Virus record (IMG/VR): IMGVR_UViG_3300007734_000734
Span: 1-60,726 of that record
From: a virus
Direction: 5' to 3' (one strand)
DNA: 60,726 nt
Shown here one piece after another: positions 39,442-58,562 of this stretch. A program made the position numbers and the translations under genes. Under the pieces are notes generated by a model. It did not search any database and was not told the DNA's origin. It worked only from the letters and a program-made list of their open reading frames with translations. How positions within the stretch are numbered: the first letter of the stretch is position 1; each line of letters begins with the position of its first letter.

Positions 39442-39474
39442 TAAATATACGATTGTTTAACCCATCAGCCAAAC
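39442..39474 (-). promoter_or_regulatory. Early promoter copy (variant)
   Basis: Diverged copy of the 33-bp element; drives the 60-aa gene (39418). Coding strand keeps TTTGGCTGA and the CGTATATTTA box. Confidence 0.5.
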
Positions 39475-39483
39475 ATATGGCAA

Positions 39484-40146
39484 TCATTGTTTGTTCAACA
39501 GTTTATCAATAAAATTTATGAAACGCGTAAACAAATTATTTTTAGTTTTACCAACAGCCAATACTTTAACTGAGTCAACAGTTAAAATGTCTTTCTGTTT
39601 GACATTGTAGTACCATCTTTCACTATTGTACTTTGCTATTGGATTTACTTCACCTAATTCTTCATAAGATTCTCCTACCATACTGTAAACCTCCTTAAGA
39701 TTTGTAGGCACCTTACCTAACATGTTGCCCAACAGTACAGCGAATGTATTATTTGACTCATTTACTTGAGCCTGATTTCCTTCCACACCACAGTATTTTG
39801 CCTCACTTACCTCACTGATAAACATTCCACTGTACATTGCGTCTAACTGATGATGTTTGATGAATTTATCTGCGTTGCACCATACTGCAATAAGCTGTTT
39901 TCCTCGCAAATGTTTTACCATCGAGTCGCCTACAGCCATAATTCCCTTACCGATGCGTGATATGTTAAACAAGCCACTTGACGCTCCATGGCCTAACATT
40001 ATGATTGTGCTATGTGACTGAATCAACAATGTGAGTTTATCTTGTGAAACGTTTTTCCTAACCACAGTCTTATTTTTTATGCCTGCGTAGATGGGCTTAA
40101 GGAAATCAGTGCTTCTATCGTCTGGGTGAATAACTAGTGTTTTCAT
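39484..40146 (-). CDS. Clan-CD/caspase-like protein, 220 aa
   Basis: A hydrophobic strand leading to GHG (IIMLGHGASSGLF, H53) is followed 37 residues later by a second strand ending in Cys (LIAVWCNAD, C90). A His-Gly after one strand and a Cys after the next is the core pattern of clan-CD peptidases (caspases, legumain, gingipain, CHAT). A family with GHG...WC-ADKF...GMFISEV is common in Bacteroidetes and their phages, without known role. Early promoter at 40163-40194. Protease activity is inferred. Confidence 0.75.
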   Translation of the reverse strand: MKTLVIHPDDRSTDFLKPIYAGIKNKTVVRKNVSQDKLTLLIQSHSTIIMLGHGASSGLFNISRIGKGIMAVGDSMVKHLRGKQLIAVWCNADKFIKHHQLDAMYSGMFISEVSEAKYCGVEGNQAQVNESNNTFAVLLGNMLGKVPTNLKEVYSMVGESYEELGEVNPIAKYNSERWYYNVKQKDILTVDSVKVLAVGKTKNNLFTRFINFIDKLLNKQ

Positions 40147-40162
40147 ATTTTTTATTTATGAT

Positions 40163-40194
40163 TAAATATACTATTGAAAGTTTAATAAGCCTAA
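40163..40194 (-). promoter_or_regulatory. Early promoter copy
   Basis: Coding strand TTAGGCTTATT and AGTATATTTA with conserved spacing; drives the caspase-like gene (40146). Confidence 0.6.
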
Positions 40195-40252
40195 TAGGTA
40201 AAATGTTACTTCGTTTGATAAAACGATGTGTGTGGCTTTTAAAGTGAAAACC

Positions 40253-40426
40253 TTACAATATGCTGTTGATTTTTTTACGAGATATCCATTCCAATCCTTC
40301 TTGCAAAGTGTCAACAGCCATCATTGTACCTTGTCCCAACACATACCATCCATCACTCCTAAGTTCTACTCTTAACTCTCCACTTAAGTCGAAAGTTTCA
40401 CCGTCTGAAAATGTTAATTTGCTCAT
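40253..40426 (-). CDS. Hypothetical protein, 57 aa
   Basis: Start 40426, stop 40255-40253. Small strand-rich protein beginning MSKLTFSDGETFDLSGEL with a helix at the C-terminus (LQEGLEWISRKK). A weakened promoter copy lies at 40451-40485. The codon pattern and operon position support it. Function is unknown. Confidence 0.65.
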   Translation of the reverse strand: MSKLTFSDGETFDLSGELRVELRSDGWYVLGQGTMMAVDTLQEGLEWISRKKINSIL

Positions 40427-40450
40427 GTTTATAGGTTTTAAATTTATAAT

Positions 40451-40485
40451 TAAATATACTATCTTTTTACCAAATCAGTTTGGTT
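40451..40485 (-). promoter_or_regulatory. Weak early promoter variant
   Basis: The TATATTTA box is kept but the GGCTT box is degraded (AACCAAACTGA); upstream of the 57-aa gene (40426). Confidence 0.35.
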
Positions 40486-40651
40486 TATTTGTTGTACATA
40501 TCAATCCAATTACACCTACACTTCCAAACATTAAAAATGTTGTTATGGCACACATAAATTGACTGTTGTCCTTTGCAATTATCAGTCCAATAAGTGACAA
40601 CATTTGTGCAATGACTGCAACAATTATTATAATAATTTTTAATTTTTTCAT
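40475..40651 (-). CDS. Small two-helix membrane protein, 58 aa
   Basis: Start 40651, stop 40477-40475. Two membrane helices (residues 4-26 and 33-52). Promoter copy at 40688-40720. Small phage membrane proteins of this type can act in lysis timing or superinfection exclusion, but no evidence separates these. Confidence 0.65.
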   Translation of the reverse strand: MKKLKIIIIIVAVIAQMLSLIGLIIAKDNSQFMCAITTFLMFGSVGVIGLICTTNKPN

Positions 40652-40687
40652 AGTTTTAGTTTTAGGTTTACATTTTTTTAACTAAAG

Positions 40688-40720
40688 TAAATATATGCAG
40701 TAAAGTGGAGTAGGCCTAAC
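40688..40720 (-). promoter_or_regulatory. Early promoter copy
   Basis: 33-bp element, coding strand TTAGGCCTACTCC...CATATATTTA; drives 40475-40651. Confidence 0.6.
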
Positions 40721-40747
40721 AGCCCACCACCCCACTACTTAACATTA

Positions 40748-41053
40748 TTATTGCTTTACTTCACCTCTTTCTAACGTCACTAAGTCATTTACTATTGACT
40801 CAACTGTTACTTTTGGTCTGCCCCTTTTAACTTCAATTCCTGCGGCAATCTTTTCTGCTCGTGCTGTCAAAATTAACTGACGTTTACTACCCGCAACACT
40901 TGGTCTTCCTTTTTTAAACGTACCCGCTGCTTTTGCTGATGCTCGTGCTGTCAAAATTAACTGACGTTTACTATTAGCATTTGCTGGACGACCTTTTTTC
41001 TTAGCTTCAACCGCTGACGCAGGAGCTGTTTGTTTGTTGTTTACTTTTCCCAT
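40748..41053 (-). CDS. AT-hook protein with three hooks, 101 aa
   Basis: Three AT-hook cores (GRP at residues 21-23, 49-51 and 78-80) lie in Lys/Arg/Ala-rich repeats (KKKGRPANANSKRQL; KKGRPSVAGSKRQL; KRGRPKV). AT hooks bind the minor groove of A/T-rich DNA. In an AT-rich phage it could coat phage or host DNA. Paralogue of the 93-aa protein at 43641-43922. Own promoter copy at 41086-41118. Confidence 0.88.
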   Translation of the reverse strand: MGKVNNKQTAPASAVEAKKKGRPANANSKRQLILTARASAKAAGTFKKGRPSVAGSKRQLILTARAEKIAAGIEVKRGRPKVTVESIVNDLVTLERGEVKQ

Positions 41054-41085
41054 AGTTTTAAGTTTTAAATTATTTATTTATGTCC

Positions 41086-41118
41086 TAAATATATGCAATT
41101 GAATCATGTAAGCCTAAT
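41086..41118 (-). promoter_or_regulatory. Early promoter copy
   Basis: 33-bp element; drives the three-hook AT-hook gene (41053). Confidence 0.7.
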
Positions 41119-41119
41119 A

Positions 41120-41320
41120 CTATATTAAAGTCAAATCTGATTCTTTAACACTGTTAAATTGTACCATTTTTGATCTACTGTCCCAGGCTACAACATACAT
41201 TCTTTCATTGTCTACTACTTCTAAATTTTCTTCATAATTCCTCCAACAATCCCAAATATGACCTTTCAATTTACTGTTACTTATTACTTTTACCTTATCA
41301 TTAATGTTAAATGGTCTCAT
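41120..41320 (-). CDS. Hypothetical protein, 66 aa
   Basis: Strand-rich small protein beginning MRPFNINDKVKVISNSKLKG, which resembles an SH3-like or KOW-like barrel, and ending VQFNSVKESDLTLI. Preceded by a promoter copy (41361-41393). Function unknown. Confidence 0.75.
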   Translation of the reverse strand: MRPFNINDKVKVISNSKLKGHIWDCWRNYEENLEVVDNERMYVVAWDSRSKMVQFNSVKESDLTLI

Positions 41321-41360
41321 TTTTTTAAGTTTTAAGTTAGTACTTATTTTTCTTACCTAG

Positions 41361-41393
41361 TAAATATATGTAATTCAATAGTGTAATCCTAAT
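41361..41393 (-). promoter_or_regulatory. Early promoter copy
   Basis: 33-bp element (GGCTT box altered to GGATT); drives 41120-41320. Confidence 0.6.
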
Positions 41394-41401
41394 CAGTTCA
41401 C

Positions 41402-41722
41402 TTAACCATGTTCCATGTCTATGTCATCTACCTCACACATTCGTCCATCTAACATTTCTTCTTCTAACATTGTCACTTCATCAAAGTCTCCAAATACAAT
41501 AAAGTTACCTCCTTGTCCACACATGTAACCATATCTGTCACAATAGTCTTGTTTTTCAGTCATCCAATCATTCAATAATGTGAAATACTGTTCTTTCGTA
41601 ATTAACAATTTCACATCATCACCATCTTCATCATCGTCAAAGTATCCTTCTACTATAATTCCTTCTTTTACAACCCCTATAATCTCAGTTGACTGACTAA
41701 ACACTACTCTTCCTTTTTTCAT
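41402..41722 (-). CDS. Acidic hypothetical protein, 106 aa
   Basis: Strand/helix protein with an acidic centre (YFDDDEDGDDVKLLI) and a highly acidic C-terminus. Acidic small phage proteins sometimes mimic DNA; nothing specific supports that here. Promoter copy at 41764-41796. Confidence 0.75.
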   Translation of the reverse strand: MKKGRVVFSQSTEIIGVVKEGIIVEGYFDDDEDGDDVKLLITKEQYFTLLNDWMTEKQDYCDRYGYMCGQGGNFIVFGDFDEVTMLEEEMLDGRMCEVDDIDMEHG

Positions 41723-41763
41723 ATTTTTATAGTTTTAAGTTAATACTTATTTTTCTTATATCC

Positions 41764-41796
41764 TAAATATATGTGAAACCATAGTGTAAGCCTAAC
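41764..41796 (-). promoter_or_regulatory. Early promoter copy
   Basis: 33-bp element, GGCTTACACTA and CATATATTTA; drives 41402-41722. Confidence 0.7.
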
Positions 41797-41802
41797 ATTG
41801 AT

Positions 41803-42135
41803 TTAAGTCAATTTAATCAATGTGTAAACACTATTTTTGGTAGAAAATTTAACAAATGAATGACCATCATCCTCTATTACTTCTACTAGTTCAGTTGTTT
41901 GCCAAGTGTAAAATGAGTTAAAAGGCGACATAATTAATGAACGACCAACTCCATATGTGCTGTGACTTTCTTTAAAGGTACTGTCTTCATTCCACTCAAT
42001 CCACTTAATGTCTTTTGACTGTTTAACCAGTCCATCTCGTTGGCGAATCAATTTCCAATTGAATTTATCTTCTAAAACTCCTTGTTTTACACCAATTTTT
42101 ACTAGTGCCTCTTCATCAATTTTTACACTTTTCAT
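41803..42135 (-). CDS. Hypothetical protein, 110 aa
   Basis: Mixed alpha/beta protein with NWKLIRQRDGLVKQSKDIKW and a C-terminal strand pair (EDDGHSFVKFSTKNSVYTLI). No motif recognised. It shares a promoter with the 34-aa gene upstream (42287-42319). Confidence 0.75.
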   Translation of the reverse strand: MKSVKIDEEALVKIGVKQGVLEDKFNWKLIRQRDGLVKQSKDIKWIEWNEDSTFKESHSTYGVGRSLIMSPFNSFYTWQTTELVEVIEDDGHSFVKFSTKNSVYTLIKLT

Positions 42136-42140
42136 AATTT

Positions 42141-42245
42141 TTAATTAAGATTAATACACAAACTCATTTCTTCTACTTTATTGTTGCCCCAAATAAAGAA
42201 TATTTGTTCTACTATTGTTACTTCAAACATGTTTTTCTTTTTCAT
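42141..42245 (-). CDS. Small hypothetical protein, 34 aa
   Basis: Start 42245, stop 42143-42141. Begins MKKKNMFEVTIVEQIFFIW and is strand-like. It follows the promoter copy at 42287-42319 at the usual leader distance, which supports translation. Confidence 0.55.
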   Translation of the reverse strand: MKKKNMFEVTIVEQIFFIWGNNKVEEMSLCINLN

Positions 42246-42286
42246 AGTCTTTATTTTTATTAGTTTAACTTATTTTTCTTATGATG

Positions 42287-42319
42287 TAAATATATGAAAC
42301 TGAGTTGTGGAAGCCTAAC
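42287..42319 (-). promoter_or_regulatory. Early promoter copy
   Basis: 33-bp element, GGCTTCCACAA and CATATATTTA; drives 42141-42245 and the 110-aa gene. Confidence 0.65.
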
Positions 42320-42563
42320 AGTCCATTCTAATTACATAACATGATACAAGACCTTCGTCGCCTTCAAAGTCTTCATCATATTCAGGAATTTTAATTTCTC
42401 CCTCTAATCCATTTTCTTCACATGGATACACTTCATCTAATTCAATTGTTGTGTTGTCGACTACTTGTCCGTAGTCCCAGCCGGTTGGATCAGTAGCTAA
42501 AATTACCAATTCTTTTTCTTGATCTAGTGTTTGTAGATGTACAATTAAGTCTTTAATTTTCAT
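42315..42563 (-). CDS. Acidic hypothetical protein, 82 aa
   Basis: Begins MKIKDLIVHLQTLDQEKEL, a start shared by a widespread family of small phage proteins that goes on to V-x-A-x-D (here VILATDPTGWDYGQV). The rest is strongly acidic. Function unknown. Promoter copy at 42604-42636. Confidence 0.78.
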   Translation of the reverse strand: MKIKDLIVHLQTLDQEKELVILATDPTGWDYGQVVDNTTIELDEVYPCEENGLEGEIKIPEYDEDFEGDEGLVSCYVIRMDC

Positions 42564-42603
42564 GTGTGTGTTTTTTAGGTTAGTATTTATTTTTTCTTAT
42601 GAT

Positions 42604-42636
42604 TAAATATATGTAACGGTGTTGTGGAAGCCTAAA
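42604..42636 (-). promoter_or_regulatory. Early promoter copy
   Basis: 33-bp element, GGCTTCCACAA; drives 42315-42563. Confidence 0.65.
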
Positions 42637-42817
42637 ATTGAATTAAGTCAATTGGCCTTTCATTTGTCACTTTCCCATTACGTGTTATTTTAACGTTTGG
42701 GTCCATTCCAGATGCTACTACATCATCAACCAATTCCATTATTGAGTTGAATGTTTTGTGATAGTATGAACATTTTAGTCCATATACACTTGTACTTTTC
42801 TTATATCTTTTTTCCAT
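42632..42817 (-). CDS. Hypothetical protein, 61 aa
   Basis: Small protein with a Tyr/Lys-rich N-terminus and a helix (FNSIMELVDDVVASGMDPNV). Promoter copy at 42822-42854, only a few bases before the start, so its leader is unusually short. Function unknown. Confidence 0.7.
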   Translation of the reverse strand: MEKRYKKSTSVYGLKCSYYHKTFNSIMELVDDVVASGMDPNVKITRNGKVTNERPIDLIQF

Positions 42818-42821
42818 ACAG

Positions 42822-42854
42822 TAAATATATGAAGTGGGGCTGTGTCAGCCTAGC
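42822..42854 (-). promoter_or_regulatory. Early promoter copy
   Basis: 33-bp element with GGCTGACACAG; lies only 5 bases before the start of the 61-aa gene (42817), so the leader is very short. Confidence 0.6.
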
Positions 42855-42987
42855 CAAAGACTATGATAGCCAATTAGTATATTCTAATCGGCTTGCTGTG
42901 GCAATCTTTAAGTTCACAATAATTTGTTCGTCCAAGAACAACCAAGGCGACGTTTATGTTTTTACTACACTACTTAAAGAACGATGA
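42829..42987 (+). CDS. Possible small plus-strand ORF, 52 aa
   Basis: An open frame on the plus strand begins at the ATG within the promoter box at 42829 and encodes MKWGCVSLAKDYDSQLVY... No plus-strand promoter is seen. It lies in the 42855-43216 gap, which otherwise holds no clear gene. Could be chance; listed because a second ORF follows 6 bases later. Confidence 0.25.
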   Translation: MKWGCVSLAKDYDSQLVYSNRLAVAIFKFTIICSSKNNQGDVYVFTTLLKER

Positions 42988-43216
42988 ATTTTTATGAAGG
43001 GCAACATTCACATTGTCTTTAACCCTATGGGAGATGTTACTAATTGCTGCACCGAAGTCTCTTCACTTTATTCAATTATACGTATGTCAACAAAGTAAAA
43101 AGTCCATCAGCTGTTTTGCCTCACTTAAGACGCTTTACTTAACTAATTTTACTTAAACGGCGCCCTTTATCATTATTATTAAGCTGAGTAAAATAAACGC
43201 TGTTTGCTATTTTTAC
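42855..43216. other. Gap of about 360 bases without a clear gene
   Basis: No minus-strand gene is convincing. Apart from two short plus-strand ORFs, I see only mildly GC-rich sequence with scattered TTACTTAA-like motifs (43130-43200). No tRNA or terminator hairpin is obvious. Confidence 0.4.
42994..43098 (+). CDS. Possible small plus-strand ORF, 34 aa
   Basis: Encodes MKGNIHIVFNPMGDVTNCC..., 6 bases after the preceding plus-strand ORF. No promoter is visible. The region is richer in GC than its surroundings and could instead be a structured RNA or a gene remnant. Confidence 0.22.
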   Translation: MKGNIHIVFNPMGDVTNCCTEVSSLYSIIRMSTK

Positions 43217-43303
43217 TTACATTTTACTTTTTACCCTACACAGTAAACTAATTATTAGGTACAATGTGGCCACTATGGCTACTGCTTCTACTATTTCTGT
43301 CAT
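43217..43303 (-). CDS. Small single-helix membrane peptide, 28 aa
   Basis: Start 43303, stop 43219-43217. One membrane helix (IVEAVAIVATLYLIISLLC) followed by a short basic tail. Size resembles phage lysis-associated or regulatory micropeptides. It is tentative because of its length. Confidence 0.4.
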   Translation of the reverse strand: MTEIVEAVAIVATLYLIISLLCRVKSKM

Positions 43304-43403
43304 TTTTTTTAAATTAAGTGTGTAAAAAAGGTAAGGCAAAGATTTTAACTCGCAACTCACTGTTTAGGTGTGTGTTTCTGTTACACCACTTACCTTTAGA
43401 CTG

Positions 43404-43565
43404 TTACTCTGTTAAACTTTTATACTTTACTAAGTACTCTTCATACATGCCTTCATTGACCTTCTTTAACTTTACCAGCCAACCCGCGACCTCTTTAGGC
43501 TCCTTTGTTTTATTTTTCAAGCCCATCAAGCCGCCTATGACTTTTTTAATTATTACTTCTTCCAT
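43404..43565 (-). CDS. Small basic protein, 53 aa
   Basis: Start 43565, stop 43406-43404. Basic helical protein beginning MEEVIIKKVIGGLMGLKNKT with a second helix (LVKLKKVNEGMYEEYLVKY). It lies just upstream of the terminator hairpin at 43607-43629, so it is transcribed separately from the AT-hook gene. Confidence 0.55.
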   Translation of the reverse strand: MEEVIIKKVIGGLMGLKNKTKEPKEVAGWLVKLKKVNEGMYEEYLVKYKSLTE

Positions 43566-43606
43566 AATAGTTGTTTTTTAAAAGTGTAAGTGTAAGTGAC
43601 AATAAA

Positions 43607-43629
43607 GGGCGAATGACTTTCATTCGCCC
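43607..43629 (-). terminator. Strong hairpin terminator of the AT-hook gene
   Basis: 10-bp GC-rich stem GGGCGAATGA/TCATTCGCCC with a 3-base loop, just past the stop of 43641-43922. Confidence 0.8.
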
Positions 43630-43640
43630 TCTTACTCATG

Positions 43641-43922: not shown

Positions 43923-43964
43923 AACCTTTATTTTTTAACTGTTAATACTTACTTTTCTTATGCT

Positions 43965-43997
43965 ATAAATATACGCTAGTGAATTGTGTAAGCCTAT
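43965..43997 (-). promoter_or_regulatory. Early promoter copy
   Basis: 33-bp element; drives the 93-aa AT-hook gene. Its TAG is also the stop of 43994-44143. Confidence 0.7.
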
Positions 43998-44143: not shown

Positions 44144-44164
44144 AACTTTCATTTTTTATTTAAC

Positions 44165-44197
44165 TAAATATACATTATTTTAACCTATAAGCCAAAC
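44165..44197 (-). promoter_or_regulatory. Early promoter copy (variant)
   Basis: Diverged element with GTTTGGCTTATAG; drives 43994-44143. Confidence 0.5.
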
Positions 44198-44514: not shown

Positions 44515-44547
44515 TAAATATATGTGACTGTACTTTGTAAGCCTAAT
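44515..44547 (-). promoter_or_regulatory. Early promoter copy
   Basis: 33-bp element; drives 44197-44496. Confidence 0.7.
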
Positions 44548-44771: not shown

Positions 44772-44804
44772 GTAAATATATGTTGGTGAACTCTGTAAGC
44801 CTAT
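44772..44804 (-). promoter_or_regulatory. Early promoter copy
   Basis: 33-bp element; drives 44543-44755. Confidence 0.7.
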
Positions 44805-45272: not shown

Positions 45273-45305
45273 TGAATATACGTTATTGAACCTTGTAAGC
45301 CTAAT
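45273..45305 (-). promoter_or_regulatory. Early promoter copy
   Basis: 33-bp element, box CGTATATTCA; drives 44949-45251 and supports its GTG start. Confidence 0.65.
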
Positions 45306-45541: not shown

Positions 45542-45574
45542 TAAATATATGTTCAAGAACTTTGTAAGCCTAAG
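45542..45574 (-). promoter_or_regulatory. Early promoter copy
   Basis: 33-bp element; drives 45301-45498. Confidence 0.7.
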
Positions 45575-45968: not shown

Positions 45969-46001
45969 TAAATATATGAAAGGGAAACTTGTAAGCCAAG
46001 C
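45969..46001 (-). promoter_or_regulatory. Early promoter copy
   Basis: 33-bp element with CTTGGCTTACA; drives 45570-45923. Confidence 0.65.
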
Positions 46002-46386: not shown

Positions 46387-46419
46387 TAAATATATATTAA
46401 TTAACTTTGTAGGCCTAAC
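46387..46419 (-). promoter_or_regulatory. Early promoter copy
   Basis: 33-bp element with TTAGGCCTACA; decides the start of the 111-aa gene at 46365. Confidence 0.65.
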
Positions 46420-46661: not shown

Positions 46662-46694
46662 TAAATATATGTTGGAAGATTTTGTAAGCCTAAT
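46662..46694 (-). promoter_or_regulatory. Early promoter copy
   Basis: 33-bp element, identical in the spacer to the copies at 48804 and 51785; drives 46415-46621. Confidence 0.7.
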
Positions 46695-46972: not shown

Positions 46973-47005
46973 TAAATATATGTTCTCCTACTTTGTAGGC
47001 CTAGT
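46973..47005 (-). promoter_or_regulatory. Early promoter copy
   Basis: 33-bp element with TAGGCCTACA; its TAG is the stop of 47001-47207. Drives 46690-46950. Confidence 0.65.
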
Positions 47006-47363: not shown

Positions 47364-47396
47364 TAAATATATGTTGATGAGTTTTGTAAGCCTATC
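47364..47396 (-). promoter_or_regulatory. Early promoter copy
   Basis: 33-bp element; drives the 48-aa and 68-aa genes. Its TAG is the stop of 47392-47613. Confidence 0.7.
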
Positions 47397-47648: not shown

Positions 47649-47681
47649 TAAATATATGTTGCTTTACTTTATAAGCCTAAC
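47649..47681 (-). promoter_or_regulatory. Early promoter copy
   Basis: 33-bp element; drives 47392-47613. Confidence 0.7.
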
Positions 47682-47916: not shown

Positions 47917-47949
47917 TAAATATATGTTGATAAGTTTTGTAAGCCTATT
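47917..47949 (-). promoter_or_regulatory. Early promoter copy
   Basis: 33-bp element; drives 47683-47898. Its TAG is the stop of the RadA-like gene. Confidence 0.7.
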
Positions 47950-48763
47950 CATCGTCATCCACTTCTCTTCCTTTTATGTCTGTGTATATTATTTGTGTTC
48001 CTGTTAGTTGAAAATACAATTTGTTTTCAACAGTCCCATTTCTGTTCTTATTAAACATAACATATGTTCCGCCTCCATCACTTTCTTTTTCCTTTCTAAT
48101 TTCTGCTGCTGCGTCTACCATATGTTTCATTTTGTTGCTGCCTACAAACACTCCCCCTTTTGTTACCTGTTGAATGAGCATGAATGTGCTAAATTTATTT
48201 GCTTCATTTTCTCCTTTATTGTTTTTGACACATTCATCTACTAACCATGATTCTGCTACTTTTCTGTCCCATCCGTTGTCATTTCTTACTCCATCAAGTA
48301 CTTCTGCTACACTGTCAATCAAAATCAAATCCCAACCTAAATTTAATGACTGTTCAATTACATCTTTTGTGTTGTGATCTGTATAGTCTGAAACAAATAA
48401 TGTTTGTACACATCCAAATTGTGGAAAACGTTGTGTGTATTTAAACATTTGTTTTTTTCCCATTTCACCTGAAATGAACAAACATTTTCTAGTTGGATCT
48501 TTTAATTGAATAGATGCTAATAAATCTAACAATAGTGTTGTTTTTCCTGTTCCTGGATCTCCAAACAACATTAAATTAGTTGCGCTTGGTACTCCTCCTT
48601 CATGACTAATTAACTCATCTAATACTAATCCACTTTTCATTTGTCCAAACATTCTTTCGTCCACATAAATGTCTTTTAGTTTAACAATTTGACTAAAATC
48701 TATTTGAACGTGTACCGGCACTTGCTCCGTTATTATTTTTTTTGGTCTGCCTCGTTTTTTCAT
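47945..48763 (-). CDS. RadA/RecA-like ATPase with AT-hook start, 272 aa
   Basis: Walker A GDPGTGKTT at 68-76 and Walker B in WDLILIDSVAEVL (about 140-152) mark a RecA-fold ATPase. The sequence around FISGEMGKKQM resembles RadA/Sms- and KaiC-type ATPases. The first residues MKKRGRPKKI are an AT hook (GRP at 5-7). It could act in recombination, DNA repair or DNA loading. The AT hook would target it to A/T-rich DNA. Promoter copy at 48804-48836. Confidence 0.85.
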   Translation of the reverse strand: MKKRGRPKKIITEQVPVHVQIDFSQIVKLKDIYVDERMFGQMKSGLVLDELISHEGGVPSATNLMLFGDPGTGKTTLLLDLLASIQLKDPTRKCLFISGEMGKKQMFKYTQRFPQFGCVQTLFVSDYTDHNTKDVIEQSLNLGWDLILIDSVAEVLDGVRNDNGWDRKVAESWLVDECVKNNKGENEANKFSTFMLIQQVTKGGVFVGSNKMKHMVDAAAEIRKEKESDGGGTYVMFNKNRNGTVENKLYFQLTGTQIIYTDIKGREVDDDE

Positions 48764-48803: not shown

Positions 48804-48836
48804 TAAATATATGTTGGAAGATTTTGTAAGCCTAAT
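48804..48836 (-). promoter_or_regulatory. Early promoter copy
   Basis: 33-bp element with a spacer identical to the copies at 46662 and 51785; drives the RadA-like gene. Confidence 0.7.
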
Positions 48837-49188
48837 CCTTGTGTAAACAATATAAGAAACATTCCTTATAGTCATGTTCATCAGCCATTGTTCTTAATTT
48901 TTTAGCTGTAATGGCATTGTAAAATGTCTTACCTCGACCCACTACATCTGCTGTTAAATCCATCCAACCATCATCTGACACATCAAAGCCTCCCTTTCCA
49001 TCTTTGCCTAACCAAGCATCTTCATATTCACGACTGAGTGTAAATGCTTTTTCATTAAGGAATTTTTCTAGTTGTTTAAATGTGTCTTCGTCTAATTTAG
49101 ACCATTCTACTTTTATTCTTTCATCATCATGGTCTAATTTCCATTTGGCTTTTTTAACTATGGTCCAAAGTTGTTTTTCTGTTTTCAT
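48832..49188 (-). CDS. DUF4240-like protein, 118 aa
   Basis: Start placed at MKTEKQLWTIVKKAKWKLDH (49188), just downstream of the preceding stop. A longer upstream frame would overlap the 69-aa gene. The string DWMDLTADVVGRGKTFYNAI-like and EDAWLGKDGKGGFDVSDDGW fit the DUF4240 pattern. Role unknown. Last gene of a three-gene cassette behind the promoter at 49702-49734. Confidence 0.78.
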   Translation of the reverse strand: MKTEKQLWTIVKKAKWKLDHDDERIKVEWSKLDEDTFKQLEKFLNEKAFTLSREYEDAWLGKDGKGGFDVSDDGWMDLTADVVGRGKTFYNAITAKKLRTMADEHDYKECFLYCLHKD

Positions 49189-49189
49189 A

Positions 49190-49399
49190 TTAGTCTTTGT
49201 TAAATGTTTGATTGTAGTATTCCTCTGCTGTTTTATCTGTGCTATATTTTCCTTCATTATATGAATCCCAATAAACATTAATTATTTGCTCTTTCTCCAT
49301 TGCTTTAGCCATTTCAAATAGCTTGAAATTTTCTCCTTTCAAAGTAACTTCATTTTCTGTTATAAGCATATCTATTAACCATTCTACTGCTGCTTTCAT
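49190..49399 (-). CDS. Conserved small phage protein, 69 aa
   Basis: Begins MKAAVEWLIDMLITENEVTL and continues with LFEMAKAMEKEQIINVYW. This is a small family that is frequent in Bacteroidetes phages. It is helical and its role is unknown. It starts 2 bases after the end of the interrupted 95-codon frame upstream. Confidence 0.8.
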   Translation of the reverse strand: MKAAVEWLIDMLITENEVTLKGENFKLFEMAKAMEKEQIINVYWDSYNEGKYSTDKTAEEYYNQTFNKD

Positions 49400-49701: not shown

Positions 49702-49734
49702 TAAATATATGTTGAAGAACTTTGTAAGCCTATC
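49702..49734 (-). promoter_or_regulatory. Early promoter copy
   Basis: 33-bp element, identical in the spacer to the copy at 50185; drives the three-gene cassette ending at 48832. Its TAG is the stop of 49730-50149. Confidence 0.7.
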
Positions 49735-50149
49735 TATCTTCTTTTGAAAATCCTGCGGAATCAATTTCAGGTCCGTTATCCACAATCATTTCATCTACAA
49801 TTTCACCATTAATAAATCTAGAAACAGAACAAAATTCAATCTCTATGTCATCCTTAATGGTTTTTTTTAATTCGTTGTATTGTTCTTCATTTTCAAGAGA
49901 ACCACATTGAGTTGCAATACCAGAATATGCTTTTATTCTATAAGCACCAAATGGATTTTTAAGTTCTATAATTTTCCAATCCGAGTCAGTTAGCTCGTTT
50001 AAGTTTTTATCCCTATTAATGATAGTTGCTGAGTAATGGTATCCACAATTACCACAATTTATGTATTCTTCACCTGTTTTGTAGTACAGGTCATTAGATG
50101 CTTCTTTCTTGCAATTCGGACATTCTATGTAATCTATTATACTTCCCAT
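49730..50149 (-). CDS. Zinc-ribbon protein, 139 aa
   Basis: Two CxxC pairs near the start (CPNCKKEAS and CGNCGYH, about residues 10-40) form a zinc ribbon. The C-terminal half is mixed alpha/beta (LKNPFGAYRIKAYSG). It ends with the GPEIDSAGFSKEDR tail shared with 47392-47613. The family MGSIIDYIECP... is frequent in Bacteroidetes phages. Promoter copy at 50185-50217. Confidence 0.82.
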   Translation of the reverse strand: MGSIIDYIECPNCKKEASNDLYYKTGEEYINCGNCGYHYSATIINRDKNLNELTDSDWKIIELKNPFGAYRIKAYSGIATQCGSLENEEQYNELKKTIKDDIEIEFCSVSRFINGEIVDEMIVDNGPEIDSAGFSKEDR

Positions 50150-50184: not shown

Positions 50185-50217
50185 TAAATATATGTTGAAG
50201 AACTTTGTAAGCCTAAC
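50185..50217 (-). promoter_or_regulatory. Early promoter copy
   Basis: 33-bp element; drives 49730-50149. Confidence 0.7.
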
Positions 50218-50261: not shown

Positions 50262-50906
50262 TTAATTGAGGCAGTATTTCCATTTATATCCATATGCCGT
50301 TTTACTATCCCCGACACAACAAGCATATATTAGAGTAGTTTTCTTATTTAAGTATTTTGACGCATCCATAACTGAATTCCATGTTGTAATATATTTATCA
50401 TTTAAATCTGTCTGGATAATTGATTTACCTATACCTTTTTTATATGAGGTCTTTCCTTTCTTTTTTACACTTAATTTTTCTCCAAATCCATTAGGTTTAG
50501 GTTTAGAATTAGATAATCCTATTTTTTGTCTATGTTCTATAGATTGAGGTCCTTTAGGAGGCATAAAACATTTATGTTTACATAATGCTTGTATGTGTTC
50601 TTTGGTGTGTGGTTTTCTCATTTTTTCTTTAAAAATTTCATCTCTAAACTCCGGTCCACCTCCACCTTTTTTATTTTTATTCATTATTTCAAATCCCCAT
50701 TGTCTAAATTGTTCTATCCAATATGATTCTATTGGTTCCCAATCTTTTCTATTTAGACTATCTACTTTATCTATATAGTCATAAGTAATTTGAAGACCAT
50801 AAGTTTTTCTATGGTTTGATTTTCTACAACCTGTTGTTTTACCTATATATACCTTATTGGAATCATTATAACAATTGGTTACTAAATAAACATATGTTGT
50901 TTCCAT
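50262..50906 (-). CDS. GIY-YIG homing endonuclease with NUMOD1, 214 aa
   Basis: YVYLVT (5-10) and VYIGKT (19-24) form the GIY-YIG catalytic pair, with R28 and a later Glu likely in the active site. A Lys/Gly-rich linker leads to a NUMOD1-like repeat (IIQTDLNDKYITTWNSVMDA). It has its own late-type motif (50907-50920) and lies between two early cassettes, typical of a freestanding homing gene. Confidence 0.88.
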   Translation of the reverse strand: METTYVYLVTNCYNDSNKVYIGKTTGCRKSNHRKTYGLQITYDYIDKVDSLNRKDWEPIESYWIEQFRQWGFEIMNKNKKGGGGPEFRDEIFKEKMRKPHTKEHIQALCKHKCFMPPKGPQSIEHRQKIGLSNSKPKPNGFGEKLSVKKKGKTSYKKGIGKSIIQTDLNDKYITTWNSVMDASKYLNKKTTLIYACCVGDSKTAYGYKWKYCLN

Positions 50907-50943: not shown

Positions 50944-51747
50944 TTAATTGCTACAGTATTGTGTTGCTAATTCCCATAATCCTATGTTCACTTTTATATC
51001 CTGTTGGAAATTTTTAATTTTTCTTGCTTTTCTTGTTTTAGTTGAAAAGCCATAGTTAAAATCACCATCAATTACTTTTTCTTGGATACGATTGAATACA
51101 TTCCATAAACTATTTCCTTCATCTTCTACTCGAGTCGCTTTAGTAAACTCAGTATAATCTATTGTGATACGGTTCATTTCTACTTCTCCAAAACGAACTG
51201 TGAGTGCTTTTTTAGCAAAATCCATGATTTGACTTTCTACTAATTCTACACCTTTCATCTTATTCATTGACTCAATAGTGAGTGGTAGTTTCCCTACTAT
51301 TTCATTAATAACATTTTGTAATTGTTTAAAATCATAACCCATATGACGAATCCGTAATTTAGCAAAATCCTGAGTAGAGATGATTAAGCCGTTTTCACAT
51401 ATCATTCTAAAAATAGAACATTGAAATGTAAACGCATTCTTACCATCACTACTATTTGTAAGAAGTATAGAAGGAAATGCATCATCACCATCTGCTCCTT
51501 TTATTACAATATTATTATTTCGAAATATGACTAAATGTTTTTGAAACCCAGCATTTTTACGTGCTTTAATTTCTTTAGCTTCTACTACACCAAATCCTAA
51601 CAAAGCCATGTCTTCAATGACTTTAAAAGTGGGAATGTGTGAGTATTTTTCAGAAGTGCTTTCTGCACCCTTACTTGCGAATATACTATTCGCTTTGATT
51701 TTCATTTCTTCCTTTGTTAGGAAGATGTGACTGTTTAAATCCATCAT
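50944..51747 (-). CDS. DUF932 protein, 267 aa
   Basis: Pattern of the DUF932 family: YSHIPTFKVIEDMALLGF near the start, RKNAGFQKHLVIFRN, then QCSIFRMICENGLI in the middle. The family is widespread in phages and plasmids. Its role is not established, although anti-restriction or replication links have been proposed. Early promoter at 51785-51817 serves the upstream gene cluster; this gene follows a T-rich leader. Confidence 0.85.
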   Translation of the reverse strand: MMDLNSHIFLTKEEMKIKANSIFASKGAESTSEKYSHIPTFKVIEDMALLGFGVVEAKEIKARKNAGFQKHLVIFRNNNIVIKGADGDDAFPSILLTNSSDGKNAFTFQCSIFRMICENGLIISTQDFAKLRIRHMGYDFKQLQNVINEIVGKLPLTIESMNKMKGVELVESQIMDFAKKALTVRFGEVEMNRITIDYTEFTKATRVEDEGNSLWNVFNRIQEKVIDGDFNYGFSTKTRKARKIKNFQQDIKVNIGLWELATQYCSN

Positions 51748-51784: not shown

Positions 51785-51817
51785 TAAATATACGTTGGAA
51801 GATTTTGTAAGCCTAAT
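51785..51817 (-). promoter_or_regulatory. Early promoter copy
   Basis: 33-bp element, box CGTATATTTA; upstream of the DUF932 gene. Confidence 0.7.
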
Positions 51818-52100
51818 TTTTACTTTTCATAGTTAATAATCCTGTTACAGTGAAACTAACACCTACTGTTAACATAATTACTCTTGACGTTTGTTTGTAA
51901 AATGGTGGAATAACATAACTTACAGTGTTGTTAGACGTTCGTTTATTGGTGCCAAACATATATCCACCTTCTAAAATAGCAGATGTAGTAAAAGATAAAC
52001 CTCCTATTGCTAACACAAATCCTTGATTGTTACTTTCATATTTTTTCTGAGCATAACTTATGTTTGTGATTAACATAAGTATTATAATTATTTTTTTCAT
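51813..52100 (-). CDS. Exported membrane protein, 95 aa
   Basis: A signal peptide (KKIIIILMLITNISYAQ) with likely cleavage after SYA is followed by two hydrophobic segments (FVLAIGGLSFTTSAIL and VIMLTVGVSFTVTGLL). Likely in the inner membrane or periplasm. It overlaps the upstream gene by 4 bases. Confidence 0.75.
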   Translation of the reverse strand: MKKIIIILMLITNISYAQKKYESNNQGFVLAIGGLSFTTSAILEGGYMFGTNKRTSNNTVSYVIPPFYKQTSRVIMLTVGVSFTVTGLLTMKSKN

Positions 52101-53393: not shown

Positions 53394-53407
53394 TTATTAT
53401 AAATATG
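53394..53407 (-). promoter_or_regulatory. Late-type motif of the fibre gene
   Basis: Coding strand CATATTTATAATAA just upstream of the SHAEG fibre gene (53389). Confidence 0.5.
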
Positions 53408-53603: not shown

Positions 53604-53608
53604 TTTTT

Positions 53609-54322: not shown

Positions 54323-54324
54323 AT

Positions 54325-54567
54325 TTAATTTTGTTTTTTAATTAAATCATTTAACGCCGAGAATATATTGTCTCCAACACCATACAATCCAAAGTATTGT
54401 TTTTCAATGTATCCTTTAACATCGTACATTGCTTCTTCATTTAGTTGTGTGTTAATCACTACCCTTGCATCTGATTCTGTTTGGAAGGCAACATACTTTC
54501 CACCATATCTCATTTGTATTACTGTTAAAGGATAAATCTCCTCATATGTTTTTACTGTTTTATTCAT
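54325..54567 (-). CDS. Hypothetical protein, 80 aa
   Basis: Begins MNKTVKTYEEIYPLTVIQMR, with a strand-helix pattern and a C-terminal helix (GDNIFSALNDLIKKQN). Directly downstream of the MNKE-type tandem set. Function unknown. Confidence 0.7.
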   Translation of the reverse strand: MNKTVKTYEEIYPLTVIQMRYGGKYVAFQTESDARVVINTQLNEEAMYDVKGYIEKQYFGLYGVGDNIFSALNDLIKKQN

Positions 54568-54573
54568 AACTTT

Positions 54574-54750
54574 CTATTGTTTTATTGTTATTAACCATTC
54601 AAGTAATTTTTCTTTTTCTAATTCTTTTCGTTTAAGACATTCTTCAAAATTTCTATGTGAAGATGCTTCATTCCATCCATAACCCATAGCACTTGCTATA
54701 AGAAACATTACGTCACTTTTTGATACTGTTATTAGTTCTTCTTTATTCAT
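54574..54750 (-). CDS. Small MNKE-type tandem gene, 58 aa
   Basis: Start 54750, stop 54576-54574. Begins MNKEELITVSKSDVMFLIAS and ends in a helical EKEKLLEWLITIKQ. It starts with the same MNKE and ends with the same 3' DNA (CTATTGTTTTATTGTT type) as the paralogues upstream, and overlaps the next gene by 8 bases. Part of a tandem gene family. Confidence 0.68.
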   Translation of the reverse strand: MNKEELITVSKSDVMFLIASAMGYGWNEASSHRNFEECLKRKELEKEKLLEWLITIKQ

Positions 54751-55117
54751 AACTTTCTATTGTTTTATTGTTGTATGTTAGTGTGATTAGTTTGGTTGGA
54801 ATGTTATACTTATCATAAGTTTCTTTAAAGTGTGCTAATTTAATAACATCGGCCCACTCCATACGATTTAATTTATCTCTAGAAATATCTCTTCTTTCAT
54901 TCAAACTCAACTCTCGTTCCTCGATATTCAACCCCCATGTTTCAGAGAACTTAACATCAGTTTTACATTTGTTGATGAACTCTTGTTTTGATAGAAGTTC
55001 TCCATTATCATTGATATAGTCATCTGGTGGTAGAATAATGTCACCGTCTTCGTCTGTATAGGATTTTACAAAGTTCTTATAAGCCTCATCAATTATCTGT
55101 CGTTGTTCTTTATTCAT
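54743..55117 (-). CDS. Tandem paralogue A, 124 aa
   Basis: Shares EFINKCKTDVKFSETWGLNI and the ending PTKLITLTYNNKTIESYE with two neighbours (55110-55634 and 55627-55884). The N-terminus MNKEQRQIIDEAYKNFVKS is helical. Overlaps the downstream gene by 8 bases, reading TTATGAATAA across the junction. Tandem duplication is evident. Function unknown. Confidence 0.75.
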   Translation of the reverse strand: MNKEQRQIIDEAYKNFVKSYTDEDGDIILPPDDYINDNGELLSKQEFINKCKTDVKFSETWGLNIEERELSLNERRDISRDKLNRMEWADVIKLAHFKETYDKYNIPTKLITLTYNNKTIESYE

Positions 55118-55634
55118 AACTTTCTATTGTTTTATTGTTGTATGTTAGTGTGATTAGTTTGGTTGGAGTGTTTAATTTTTGACCGCCCCATTCGGTTCCA
55201 TCATAAGAAACGGTTTCAAATGCATTAGTATTTAGAAAAACGCCCCATCCAAATTCCGTTACGTAAAAAACTTCATCATCCTTAATCTGTTCAGTTCTCC
55301 ATATGCTTTCATTACTTTCCTTACTTTTACCGTAGTAAATTAATTGTCTTTTATCTGTTAATGAAAATTCCATTTCTCCACCGTGACCAATCAATTTAAT
55401 TTTCTTAGGTAATCTTTCTTCCGAACTCAACTCTCGTTCTTCAATCTTCAATCCCCACTTTTCAGAGAACTCAGGGTCGGTTTTACATTTGTTGATGAAT
55501 TCACCTCTAGTTAATATCCCTTCCCCATTTAATATTGGTTTACCACTAACAGACGGAACCGCATTATCATAAAACCATTTAGTATATTCCTGACCAACCG
55601 CTTCAATAATCTGATTGTATTTTTCTTTATTCAT
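55110..55634 (-). CDS. Tandem paralogue B, 174 aa
   Basis: Longest member of the set. It has the same MNKEKYNQIIEAVGQEYTKW start and TYNNKTIESYE end, with an inserted region (EMEFSLTDKRQLIYYGKSKE to FLNTNAFETVSYDGTEWGG) in the middle. Overlaps paralogue A by 8 bases. Function unknown. Confidence 0.75.
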   Translation of the reverse strand: MNKEKYNQIIEAVGQEYTKWFYDNAVPSVSGKPILNGEGILTRGEFINKCKTDPEFSEKWGLKIEERELSSEERLPKKIKLIGHGGEMEFSLTDKRQLIYYGKSKESNESIWRTEQIKDDEVFYVTEFGWGVFLNTNAFETVSYDGTEWGGQKLNTPTKLITLTYNNKTIESYE

Positions 55635-55884
55635 AACTTTCTATTGTTTTATTGTTGTATGTTAGTGTGATTAGTTTGGTTGGAATGTTATACTTATCTA
55701 ATTCTTTAGTTGCTACCATTATAACATACTCATTTAATTTTCTCTCAGAAGCCCATATCTCTCTTTCTTCAACAACCAACTCTCGTTCCTCGATATTCAA
55801 CCCCCATGTTTCAGAGAACTTAACATCAGTTTTAATACAATGAATGAATGAGTCTTTTGTTAAAGACACTACTTGAGTAGACAT
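55627..55884 (-). CDS. Tandem paralogue C, 85 aa (N-terminally truncated)
   Basis: Has KTDVKFSETWGLNIEERELV and the shared ending, but the normal N-terminus is missing. Its first part lies in another frame at 55869-55940, so a frameshift has split the gene. Translation may restart at ATG 55884. Function unknown. Confidence 0.65.
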   Translation of the reverse strand: MSTQVVSLTKDSFIHCIKTDVKFSETWGLNIEERELVVEEREIWASERKLNEYVIMVATKELDKYNIPTKLITLTYNNKTIESYE

Positions 55885-55940
55885 TCCAGCAATGATAGAA
55901 TACTTTCATACACTTTATCAATAATTTGTTCTTTATTCAT
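55869..55940 (-). pseudogene. Frameshifted 5' part of tandem paralogue C, 23 codons
   Basis: ATG 55940 opens MNKEQIIDKVYESILSLLE and stops at TAG 55871-55869. The paralogues have the same MNKE-type start joined directly to the rest of the protein. Here the continuation is in a different frame from 55884, so a small indel near 55885-55900 has broken the gene. Confidence 0.6.
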
Positions 55941-55957
55941 ATTTTATTTTTTACTAA

Positions 55958-56440
55958 TTAATAAATTCTTACCATCCAAAGTCGAATACTAGGTGTAGAA
56001 GAATTCAACATATCAGAAAATAATGCGTTGTTGATAGTCCAGTTATTAATGAATGTTCCTTGAACTTCTCCACTCCAGTCACCTCCAATTGTAGTGAAGG
56101 AGTGTAATGATATGTGGTTGCCTAAGTCAATCTGATTGGGCACATAAATAATGCTCATACTGTAGTTGTGTGGTGTAGAATTGTTGATAGTATATTGTGT
56201 GTTGTTTATAAAATCTAAAGTGTCGTTAGGATAAATTGATGTAAGATTTTGAATGTACTTAGTTACAATCCATTTACTGCCTATTAAACTTGTTACATTT
56301 ACAGTAGGACCACCTATTACACTATTATGATTAATGCTAGATGTGTTGTGAATAGTAGTCTGTGGACTAACATAGTTTACAGGTTCTTTTTTACAAGAAG
56401 TAAACAATGTTAAAAGTAAGATTGTAATAAATTTTTTCAT
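55958..56440 (-). CDS. Lipoprotein, 160 aa
   Basis: Signal peptide MKKFITILLLTLFTSC with lipobox F-T-S-C16, then a Ser/Thr/Asn/Ile-rich beta-type mature part (SLIGSKWIVTKYIQNLTSI) similar to lipocalin-like or META-type strand proteins. It would be exported and anchored by lipid. Host surface modification is possible. Confidence 0.78.
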   Translation of the reverse strand: MKKFITILLLTLFTSCKKEPVNYVSPQTTIHNTSSINHNSVIGGPTVNVTSLIGSKWIVTKYIQNLTSIYPNDTLDFINNTQYTINNSTPHNYSMSIIYVPNQIDLGNHISLHSFTTIGGDWSGEVQGTFINNWTINNALFSDMLNSSTPSIRLWMVRIY

Positions 56441-56452
56441 GTTAATTTTTAA

Positions 56453-56701
56453 TTAATCCTCTAATTGTAAACCACTACTACTTAACATTTCTCTAATTAT
56501 CTCTCTGTATTTTTCTGCAATGTCTTGTTCAAATCCAGGTGCTTGTGATTCCATATGGATTACACTAACTCCATACTTAGTTGTTTGTCTTAGTTTTTGA
56601 TCTAATTCCCACATAACTGTTTTCCATCTTTGGCCATCTAATGCTGTTCTAGCATCATTTGCTTCTTCTTGAGAGTCAAACTCTAGTATTATCTTTCCCA
56701 T
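56453..56701 (-). CDS. Conserved phage protein, 82 aa
   Basis: MGKIILEFDSQEEANDARTA and the WELDQKLRQTTKYGVS segment belong to a small family frequent in phages. Mixed helix-strand, acidic. Its ATG overlaps the end of the next gene by one base. Function unknown. Confidence 0.75.
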   Translation of the reverse strand: MGKIILEFDSQEEANDARTALDGQRWKTVMWELDQKLRQTTKYGVSVIHMESQAPGFEQDIAEKYREIIREMLSSSGLQLED

Positions 56702-57012
56702 TATATAAAGTATTTTTCTTTAACTAGAAATTCATATAAACCTTTTACATCTTTACATATCTCTTTACCATCCTTATCATTTGCATTTAAGTCTTTTCTT
56801 GGTTTACCTGAGATACCATCTTTTTCATAGAGATACCAACCTAACCATTCGTTACCATCTTCAGTTAATACTTCCTTCCAAAGTACTCCCACAGCTCTTT
56901 GTATGTCGTCCATAACATCTAATAGATCAATTTTACATTTATGAATTTCATCCATTTTATTATTGTGACTTATCTGATAGTCAATAATTGCTTTAAATTT
57001 TTCGTATTTCAT
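56701..57012 (-). CDS. Hypothetical protein, 103 aa
   Basis: Helical with an aromatic stretch (VLWKEVLTEDGNEWLGWYLY) and an acidic tail. The C-terminal hydrophobic segment (LYEFLVKEKYFI) may be buried. Similar proteins are frequent in Bacteroidetes phages. Overlaps the next gene by 4 bases. Confidence 0.72.
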   Translation of the reverse strand: MKYEKFKAIIDYQISHNNKMDEIHKCKIDLLDVMDDIQRAVGVLWKEVLTEDGNEWLGWYLYEKDGISGKPRKDLNANDKDGKEICKDVKGLYEFLVKEKYFI

Positions 57013-57557
57013 AACTTTTCTATTTCTTTTTTTACTTCAAACCAATAATCATAACGTATCATTAAGTCTTGGTAGTATAGTATAGTTTTAATTTTATCTA
57101 CCATAACTAATGCACATTGTTTAGCTTCATTATAATCTAATGACTTAACTTTAATTTGATAATTAACAATTAACTCAGATGCCTTTTCTCTTGGTGATGT
57201 ATTATATTCTTCAGTGTGTTCATATGCTCCATCAGGTCCAATTTGAAAGTCATCTGAAACGTATGGTTTATTTTCTTCAGGTAATGGCCCGCAGTCGCAA
57301 TAGGATGTGTGACCACAGTAACATTTAGTAAGTATCTTAGCACATTTATGCATTGTTGTGCCATCTTCAACTGGGATGATTGCTTCTGTAATTTCAAACT
57401 CTACTTCTAGTCCTTCATTAGAGTCATATAACTTTAGTCCATCTATATGGCCATTGTCTATTAATGGATACTGATTGATTAGTTTAGCATGTGTTCCTTC
57501 TTTAACTACTTGCTTTACTACCCACCCACGATTTGTTTTATTTAATATTCCTTTCAT
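57009..57557 (-). CDS. MKGIL-family protein, paralogue 1, 182 aa
   Basis: Begins MKGILNKTNRGWVVKQVVKE, then LPLIDNGH-type strands and a Cys-rich insert (CYCGHTSYCDCG). The second half is nearly identical to 58929-59480 (KPYVSDDFQIGPDGAYEHTE...VKSLDYNEAKQCALVMVD). The family is common in Bacteroidetes phages. Role unknown. Confidence 0.8.
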   Translation of the reverse strand: MKGILNKTNRGWVVKQVVKEGTHAKLINQYPLIDNGHIDGLKLYDSNEGLEVEFEITEAIIPVEDGTTMHKCAKILTKCYCGHTSYCDCGPLPEENKPYVSDDFQIGPDGAYEHTEEYNTSPREKASELIVNYQIKVKSLDYNEAKQCALVMVDKIKTILYYQDLMIRYDYWFEVKKEIEKL

Positions 57558-57560
57558 TGT

Positions 57561-57776
57561 TTATTTCTTTGTATTTGTATTAATTATAATAGGTAATTTA
57601 CCTTCAGGTGACATTTCTATCAATTGTTTGTATTTCTCATCTCCAACAACACCATCAACACTCCATTCTGTTTTTATTCCGTTTTCGTATATTGGAATTG
57701 AGTATGTTTCAATTTTATTTAAAATTAATTCCTCTAATGCTTCTATTGCATATTTATTAAACTCTTGTAGTATCAT
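57561..57776 (-). CDS. Hypothetical protein, 71 aa
   Basis: Helix followed by strands, ending PEGKLPIIINTNTKK. It overlaps the phosphoesterase start by 4 bases (57773-57776), so it is translated with it. Function unknown. Confidence 0.72.
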   Translation of the reverse strand: MILQEFNKYAIEALEELILNKIETYSIPIYENGIKTEWSVDGVVGDEKYKQLIEMSPEGKLPIIINTNTKK

Positions 57777-58519
57777 ATTTCAAATATATTTCCGTTACTA
57801 CTTAGTTTACCAAACTTACCATCAGTCACTACACTTCCATTACTATAGATTGTATCACTTATTGATAGTTTCATTGTTCCTGCATTAATGATGTCTTCAC
57901 AATTATGGATATGACCAAACAAGCATAGTTTAGGTTTTAAATCTAACATACGCTTTTTAAGTGATGAATCACCACAAAATTCTAATGTACCATCTCTATT
58001 GTAAGATAAATCTAATATTCCTCTTGGTGGTCCATGTACAACCACAATGTCAGTGTCATCTGGAATATACTTCCAAACTTCAAAAGTCTTATCTCTTCTT
58101 TTATTGAATGCCCATCCTTGACCAAAGCTTGGTGTGATTGGAGAACCCCATATTTTAATAGGTTTAGGTGGCACAATAGTTGATCCTATCATGTTTGTAT
58201 TAGCTAGTGATTTCCATCCATCATTTTCGTCTATTTCAATCCAATCATTCTCCAAGTAAATAATACCTGCTCTTTCAAAGTCATCCTTTTTAATAAAGTT
58301 TCTTTCAACACAAACATCATGGTTTCCAGCAACAAATATTTTATGTTTGATTGACAATGAACCAAACCAAGATATAAAGTTTTGCATTTCTTGTTCACTT
58401 ACATATGGATCTCTTGGATTAGTTGCGTCACCACTGTGAATTACCATGTCTATTCCTTCAGGTACTATTAATAGTCCGTGGTAGGTGTGAGTATCACTTA
58501 TGTGCCAAATTTTCATCAT
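57773..58519 (-). CDS. Calcineurin-like metallophosphoesterase, 248 aa
   Basis: All five family motifs are visible: DTH (D9-x-H11), GD near 30, GNHD (66-69), VHGPP and GHIH. These residues bind two metals and hydrolyse phosphoesters. The substrate could be a cyclic nucleotide, DNA, protein or nucleotide. Small phage MPEs have been found in nucleotide-signalling counter-defence and in DNA processing; neither is shown here. Own early promoter variant (58530-58562). Confidence 0.9.
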   Translation of the reverse strand: MMKIWHISDTHTYHGLLIVPEGIDMVIHSGDATNPRDPYVSEQEMQNFISWFGSLSIKHKIFVAGNHDVCVERNFIKKDDFERAGIIYLENDWIEIDENDGWKSLANTNMIGSTIVPPKPIKIWGSPITPSFGQGWAFNKRRDKTFEVWKYIPDDTDIVVVHGPPRGILDLSYNRDGTLEFCGDSSLKKRMLDLKPKLCLFGHIHNCEDIINAGTMKLSISDTIYSNGSVVTDGKFGKLSSNGNIFEI

Positions 58520-58529
58520 TTCTTTATTT

Positions 58530-58562
58530 TAAATATATGTTGTTTTATCTTGCAAGCCTAAT
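58530..58562 (-). promoter_or_regulatory. Early promoter copy (isolated)
   Basis: 33-bp element, GGCTTGCAAGA and CATATATTTA, about 7 kb from the main array; drives the phosphoesterase gene. Confidence 0.65.

Follow-up and report, generated by a model that had tools for sequence, protein, structure and literature searches.

A linear virus fragment of 60,726 bp in IMG/VR (record IMGVR_UViG_3300007734_000734; the whole fragment is referred to here as the window) carries an array of short repeats placed before small genes, and these repeats are probably the early promoters of a T4-like phage of Bacteroidetes, read by the primary sigma factor of the host (sigmaABfr type). The window phage itself is best read as a large member of that group. 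Specifically, its baseplate wedge protein shares 45.6% identity with that of Flavobacterium phage immuto_2-6A (NC_055915; hereafter immuto), a 160-kb T4-like myovirus and its nearest cultured sister, and the two have a common gene order consisting of the promoter array (bounded in immuto by gp159, DUF932, and gp120, a phosphohydrolase), a sigma factor candidate (gp118 in immuto) and baseplate genes, the array occupying the same interval in both.

The Probable Promoter Array

The motif has the consensus T(A/T)GG(C/A)TTACA-N12-(A/G)TATATTTA, that is, T(A/T)GGCTTACA-N12-ATATATTTA. On the minus strand between 39442 and 58560 there are 26 strong copies (58560 to 40193) and one weak copy (39472-39442), and the plus strand holds a single copy at 35666-35696 (Table 1). 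Positions 1-10 and 22-31 are constant, the intervening spacer is variable in sequence, and the distance from TTACA to ATATATTTA is exactly 12 nt in all copies. The original prediction, which described about 27 near-identical 33-bp promoters with a fixed-length spacer and a shared leader, therefore holds as to the count, the spacer length and the leader, which is A-rich and conserved chiefly at about +5 to +10 of the predicted RNA, but the near-identity does not extend over 33 bp, given the variable spacer. The most informative part of the motif is GGC, and information is also high in the TTACA block.

The array far exceeds what shuffled or simulated sequence yields. When TAGGCTTACA was sought with at most one mismatch, 26 matches were found against 3.5 +/- 2.0 expected, a number reached by 0 of 100 shuffles; with a position-weight matrix the strong copies scored 21-43, the best score in 20 Markov copies of the window being 13.2. 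The copies precede small genes, mostly without known function, and across 13 related contigs, over which both gene-start and stop-fusion counts were pooled from non-redundant strong copies, 168 of 174 copies are followed by an ATG that opens an open reading frame (ORF), at a median of 23 nt past the -7 box.

Two other sources of promoter-like sequence were rejected. Escherichia coli-type sigma70 promoters numbered 70 in the region against 73 expected from shuffles, and a host or prophage origin of the motif met with five isolated matches, and no arrays, in 84,980 cellular genomes. A search for T7-type phage RNA polymerase (PF00940) gave no match in seven records including complete immuto, though the control genomes gave none either.

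Identity of the Promoter Elements

Promoters of Flavobacterium johnsoniae are composed of a -7 box, TAHHTTTG, with its T at -12, and a -33 TTTG, with the start 4-5 nt downstream; the Bacteroidetes register runs from T-12 and A-11 to -5, the start following 4-5 nt later (PMC6847099). When TATATTTA, present in 26 of the 27 window copies, is aligned to this register, T(A/T)G falls at -35 to -33, and an A conserved in 22/27 copies (position 36) falls at +1. The Bacteroidetes-type -7 box named by the original prediction is thus upheld.

A comparable geometry is found throughout the group. In the DNA around the sigma gene of 80 relatives, themselves found via that gene, there are 90 cases in which T(T/A)G precedes TAHHTTTR by exactly 20 nt, while other spacings have a mean of 20 and a largest value of 36; on the opposite strand around the gene, no spacing peak was seen for this pair. 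The relatives carry TTTG at -33 with the 20-bp spacing of the window, while the GGC(T/C) flank varies by clade, the TTG being extended as TTGC in immuto and as TTGGA or TTGGCC in others. In immuto, promoters of the form TTG-N20-TATATTTA-like (GTTGC...) occur in 36 places, 23 of them within the syntenic array at 60-77 kb. Because of the host register, the exact 20-nt spacing in relatives and the immuto promoters, the leading T(A/T)G is best read as the -33 element and GGCTTACA as a clade-specific extension; the latter had been predicted to be a conserved -35-like element, a role that falls instead to the triplet just upstream, at -33.

In comparison with Bacteroidetes sigmaABfr promoters (-33 TTTG, -7 TAnnTTTG), the window copies agree in the register of TATATTTA, in T(T/A)G at -33, in the predicted start and in leader length, but differ in having A for G at -5, TAG for TTG, a strong GGCTTACA extension and near invariance among copies. 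The exact window motif is essentially absent from immuto (one weak match), Mel-JY01 and a 484-kb phage. Such absence from sister phages had been named as grounds for rejecting the promoters; the promoter reading survives it because immuto carries its own array at the same place. That array resembles the window array in its position between the DUF932 and phosphohydrolase genes and in its 31-bp geometry, and differs in its TTGC box, in lacking stop fusion and in bearing terminator-like hairpins. As for the predicted co-regulated early expression by a host sigma factor, the co-regulated set of small genes stands and the host factor is probable, while the early timing we only infer. For T4-like phages of Bacteroidetes, our literature search turned up no account of promoter classes.

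TAG at -33 and the Stop Codon

The middle base of the -33 triplet separates the contigs into two groups. In seven contigs TAG occupies 55-100% of copies, while in 16 others, immuto among them, TTG occupies 94-100%, and on the sigma-protein tree the TAG group requires a single change (support 85/82). Since TTG is also the host consensus, TAG is taken as the derived state and TTG as ancestral.

In 15 of 24 window copies, the TAG is the in-frame stop codon of the preceding gene (P = 0.003 against one third), and TAG closes 17 of 29 array ORFs compared with 4 of 62 elsewhere (P = 1.4e-7). Pooled over all contigs, the in-frame stop is found in 55/137 copies (40%; P = 0.056 against the one-third frame expectation), and these 55 copies lie at offset 0, every other offset having at most 12. 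A tentative proposal is that conversion of the -33 element to a stop codon placed stop and promoter within one 31-bp repeat, which may serve as a universal joint for adding or removing accessory genes, with the end of the upstream frame and expression of the downstream gene both guaranteed, and that GGCTTACA would compensate for the lost TTG contact.

Several observations weigh against this account and against plain recognition by the host sigma factor. Firstly, 82 of the 137 TAG copies do not serve as stops, which means that a role as stop codon is insufficient to account for TAG, and the pooled rate of in-frame fusion is only slightly above what frame alone would give. Secondly, TAG in place of TTG is expected to weaken the sigma contact, the -7 box ends in A rather than the host G, and the information in GGC exceeds the needs of a plain sigmaA promoter. 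Additionally, because the window is a fragment, phage transcription factors outside it are possible.

The first of these points favors the view that TAG is simply the promoter base preferred by this clade and came to act as a stop incidentally, through tight packing. This view, which is kept because the pooled rate is only slightly above one third, is quite plausible, though it falls short of probable; set against it are the 15 of 24 fusions in the window and the excess at offset 0. It limits the stop fusion alone and is compatible with early promoters read by the host. A second alternative is that a phage activator or a modification of RNA polymerase is needed, GGCTTACA being its site and host sigmaA reading the -7 box only, in a MotA-like manner or through a modified alpha subunit. 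The high information in GGC and TTACA and the departure of TAG from TTTG would fit such a factor, as would the weakness of the -33 motif in F. johnsoniae itself (PMC6847099) and the comparable -35-region preference that T4-like phages show in connection with a modified alpha subunit (PMC1524935). It is T(T/A)G, however, that stays precisely in the -33 register throughout the group, GGC being variable, and no candidate activator was identified, which makes this alternative unlikely and leaves recognition of both boxes by the host sigma factor as the preferred reading.

Promoter Copies as Possible Recombination Joints

Comparison of the window with its relatives suggests a further role for the repeats. 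One contig (G003) is approximately 89% identical to the window over part of the array. Between its genes for proteins of 272 and 71 amino acids lies a 0.86-kb segment with a promoter copy at either end, the spacers of the two copies being almost alike; the window lacks this segment exactly between copies and has a single promoter between the two genes. At a second junction both genes are kept, with 94-95% protein identity, yet the spacer and leader differ. Moreover, spacers that are identical or nearly so stand before unrelated genes at a frequency above that of column shuffles, and some 31-mers are repeated before such genes with their spacer unchanged or almost so. The gene order of the array is scrambled: the next gene differs in 63 of 64 homologous cassette pairs, an upper value because small diverged proteins can be missed. 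The block from the sigma gene to the baseplate is collinear, as is, with relative G004, that from the phosphohydrolase to the baseplate. Taken together, the promoter copies look like recombination joints, with recombination as the presumed cause.

The copied spacers, the cassette indel between copies and the scrambled order would also fit recombination or mobile-element sequences in which promoter activity is secondary. Fixed spacing, placement at gene starts, strand bias and the sigmaA register are nevertheless promoter constraints, and it is very improbable that the repeats are mainly of that kind.

As early promoters, the repeats invite comparison with the promoter-stem-loop (PeSL) cassettes of T4-type phages, taken here as defined in PMC4503421, which cites Arbiol 2010 and Comeau 2014. 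As far as that source outlines them, those cassettes, too, have numerous early promoters of almost the same sequence in front of small ORFan genes, earliness in the window being our inference, and in them, too, promoter repeats lie where genes are shuffled, as reflected in the window by the cassette indel and the differing next genes. In contrast to the cassettes outlined there, the window has Bacteroidetes-type boxes, lacks the stem-loop in most copies and shows promoter-stop fusion instead, and the immuto hairpin sits within the promoter spacer. Specifically, a strong terminator-like hairpin surrounds the -33 element and spacer in 11/36 immuto promoters (null 2.5; off-register control 3), while strong hairpins occur in three of 26 window copies (at 45999, 42852 and 40718). 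In the TAG clade, 3/55 stop-fused copies have a hairpin against a null of 2.1, and the other copies show a weak excess. A terminator-promoter composite was consequently rejected as a window-wide rule and kept for immuto and a minority of copies. The array is a variant of T4-type early-promoter cassettes, and the original prediction is extended by the -33 assignment, the stop fusion and the possible role as joints.

A Late-Type Motif and a Candidate Sigma Factor

In T4, early promoters are read by the host sigma factor and late ones by gp55 at TATAAATA (PMC1524935). The late genes of the window phage likewise carry a separate -10-only motif (TATTTATAA), probably with a gp55-like phage sigma factor. 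Within 30 nt of an ATG, ATTTATAA was found in 9/16 forward and 0/5 reverse cases in the window and in 16/25 and 0/19, respectively, in immuto; the sites precede portal, sheath, tube, capsid and baseplate-region genes and have no -33 box. The motif and the region-2 sigma candidate recall T4 late transcription, from which the window phage differs in having TATTTATAA on the coding strand and a highly diverged sigma. The late-type motif TATTTATA(A), common to the window and immuto, contains the reverse complement of T4's TATAAATA. Two homing-endonuclease-like genes, NUMOD1/HNH at 50262-50906 (-) and SegE GIY-YIG at 14893-15786 (-), have the late motif upstream, not an early promoter.

The candidate scores 19-21 bits against Sigma70 region 2, under the cut-off of 24, and 38/39 family members match; phrog_234, a phage late sigma family, is matched by 34/39 members with weak E-values. 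Region 4 was not detected in it. A Foldseek search with its structure, predicted from an alignment without the immuto row, gave sigma factors as best matches (E > 0.1), and a sequence search against solved structures gave no match. At least 540 relatives of the gene occur in viral contigs, making it a good marker for this phage group.

That this sigma candidate is encoded and conserved in the group raises the alternative that it, rather than the host sigma, reads the array promoters. Without a recognizable region 4 to read the -33 element, and with its resemblance to the T4 late sigma and a distinct -10-only motif fronting baseplate, capsid and tail genes, such a role is highly doubtful.

Table 1. 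Promoter copies (31 bp each), late-type motifs and the sigma factor candidate in the window; the genes given as driven are predicted from position.
Feature	Coordinates	Strand	Remarks
Promoter copy	58530..58560	-	TAG is stop of ORF 58558-58932; predicted to drive phosphoesterase gene 57773-58519
Promoter copy	51785..51815	-	TAG is stop of ORF 51813-52100; predicted to drive DUF932 gene 50944-51747
Promoter copy	50185..50215	-	Not stop-fused; predicted to drive ORF 49730-50149
Promoter copy	49702..49732	-	Stop-fused (ORF 49730-50149)
Promoter copy	48804..48834	-	Stop-fused (ORF 48832-49278); predicted to drive RecA/AAA-like 47945-48763
Promoter copy	47917..47947	-	Stop-fused; junction of 0.86-kb cassette indel relative to G003
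Promoter copy	47649..47679	-	Stop TAA 6 nt upstream
Promoter copy	47364..47394	-	Stop-fused
Promoter copy	46973..47003	-	Stop-fused
Promoter copy	46662..46692	-	Stop-fused
Promoter copy	46387..46417	-	Stop-fused
Promoter copy	45969..45999	-	TTG at -33; inside hairpin (-17.4 kcal/mol)
Promoter copy	45542..45572	-	Stop-fused
Promoter copy	45273..45303	-	Stop-fused
Promoter copy	44773..44803	-	Not stop-fused
Promoter copy	44515..44545	-	Stop-fused
Promoter copy, weaker	44165..44195	-	TTG at -33
Promoter copy	43966..43996	-	Stop-fused
Promoter copy	42822..42852	-	Hairpin in -33 region
Promoter copy	42604..42634	-	Stop-fused
Promoter copy	42287..42317	-	Stop-fused
Promoter copy	41764..41794	-	
Promoter copy	41361..41391	-	
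Promoter copy	41086..41116	-	TAG stop 6 nt upstream
Promoter copy	40688..40718	-	Hairpin (-13.9 kcal/mol) overlapping -33 region
Promoter copy, weaker	40163..40193	-	Predicted to drive ORF 39484-40146
Promoter copy, weak 27th	39442..39472	-	TTG at -33; predicted to drive ORF 39236-39418
Promoter copy, single plus-strand	35666..35696	+	Predicted to drive ORF 35714-36232 (DUF6576, below cut-off)
Promoter copy, weak, solitary	14844..14874	-	Before primase gene 13899-14831
Late-type motif ATTTATAA	32734..32741	-	One of nine just before a gene in the window
Other eight late-type motifs	first base 53404, 50917, 36719, 29261, 19120, 15807, 8304, 5646		
gp55-like (late) sigma factor candidate	32750..33454	-	234 amino acids; weak Sigma70 region 2 homology

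Other Features of the Window

In a megablast comparison of the window with phages, the sole match was a short one to the elemo phages: positions 57770-57845, at the 3' end of the phosphoesterase gene, which has an array-type promoter, are approximately 87-93% identical to Flavobacterium elemo podophages. A phage tmRNA gene at 37278-37757 (minus strand), scoring 110.9 bits in Rfam, lies beside a weak tRNA match and has a tag of 23 residues that is unusual, and three neighboring genes at 54743-55884 (-) look like mutual paralogues with 37-65% identity.

Proposed Mechanism and Implications

The arrangement suggests a mechanism in which the host sigma factor would contact the -33 element (T-T/A-G, positions 1-3) and the -7 box (TATATTTA, positions 24-31), 20 bp apart, the predicted first base of the transcript being the A some 5 nt past the -7 box. 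Each copy would fire one small accessory gene via a short A-rich leader, so that the genes line up as successive self-contained cassettes. Replacement of the -33 TTG by TAG in one clade would have allowed the first three bases of the promoter to end the preceding gene; since the upstream half of the promoter is often that gene's stop, each gene would resemble a plug-in cassette. With promoter copies acting as homologous joints, cassettes could be gained, lost and moved while flanking reading frames stay unbroken, and the late genes would be served separately by the -10-only motif, probably through the gp55-like sigma.

The motif offers a ready means to find early accessory genes, with probable roles in host takeover and anti-defence, in uncultured phages, and its copies are candidates for strong promoters in Flavobacterium genetics. 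The array also presents a case, open to testing, in which regulatory repeats may at once be stop codons and joints for recombination.

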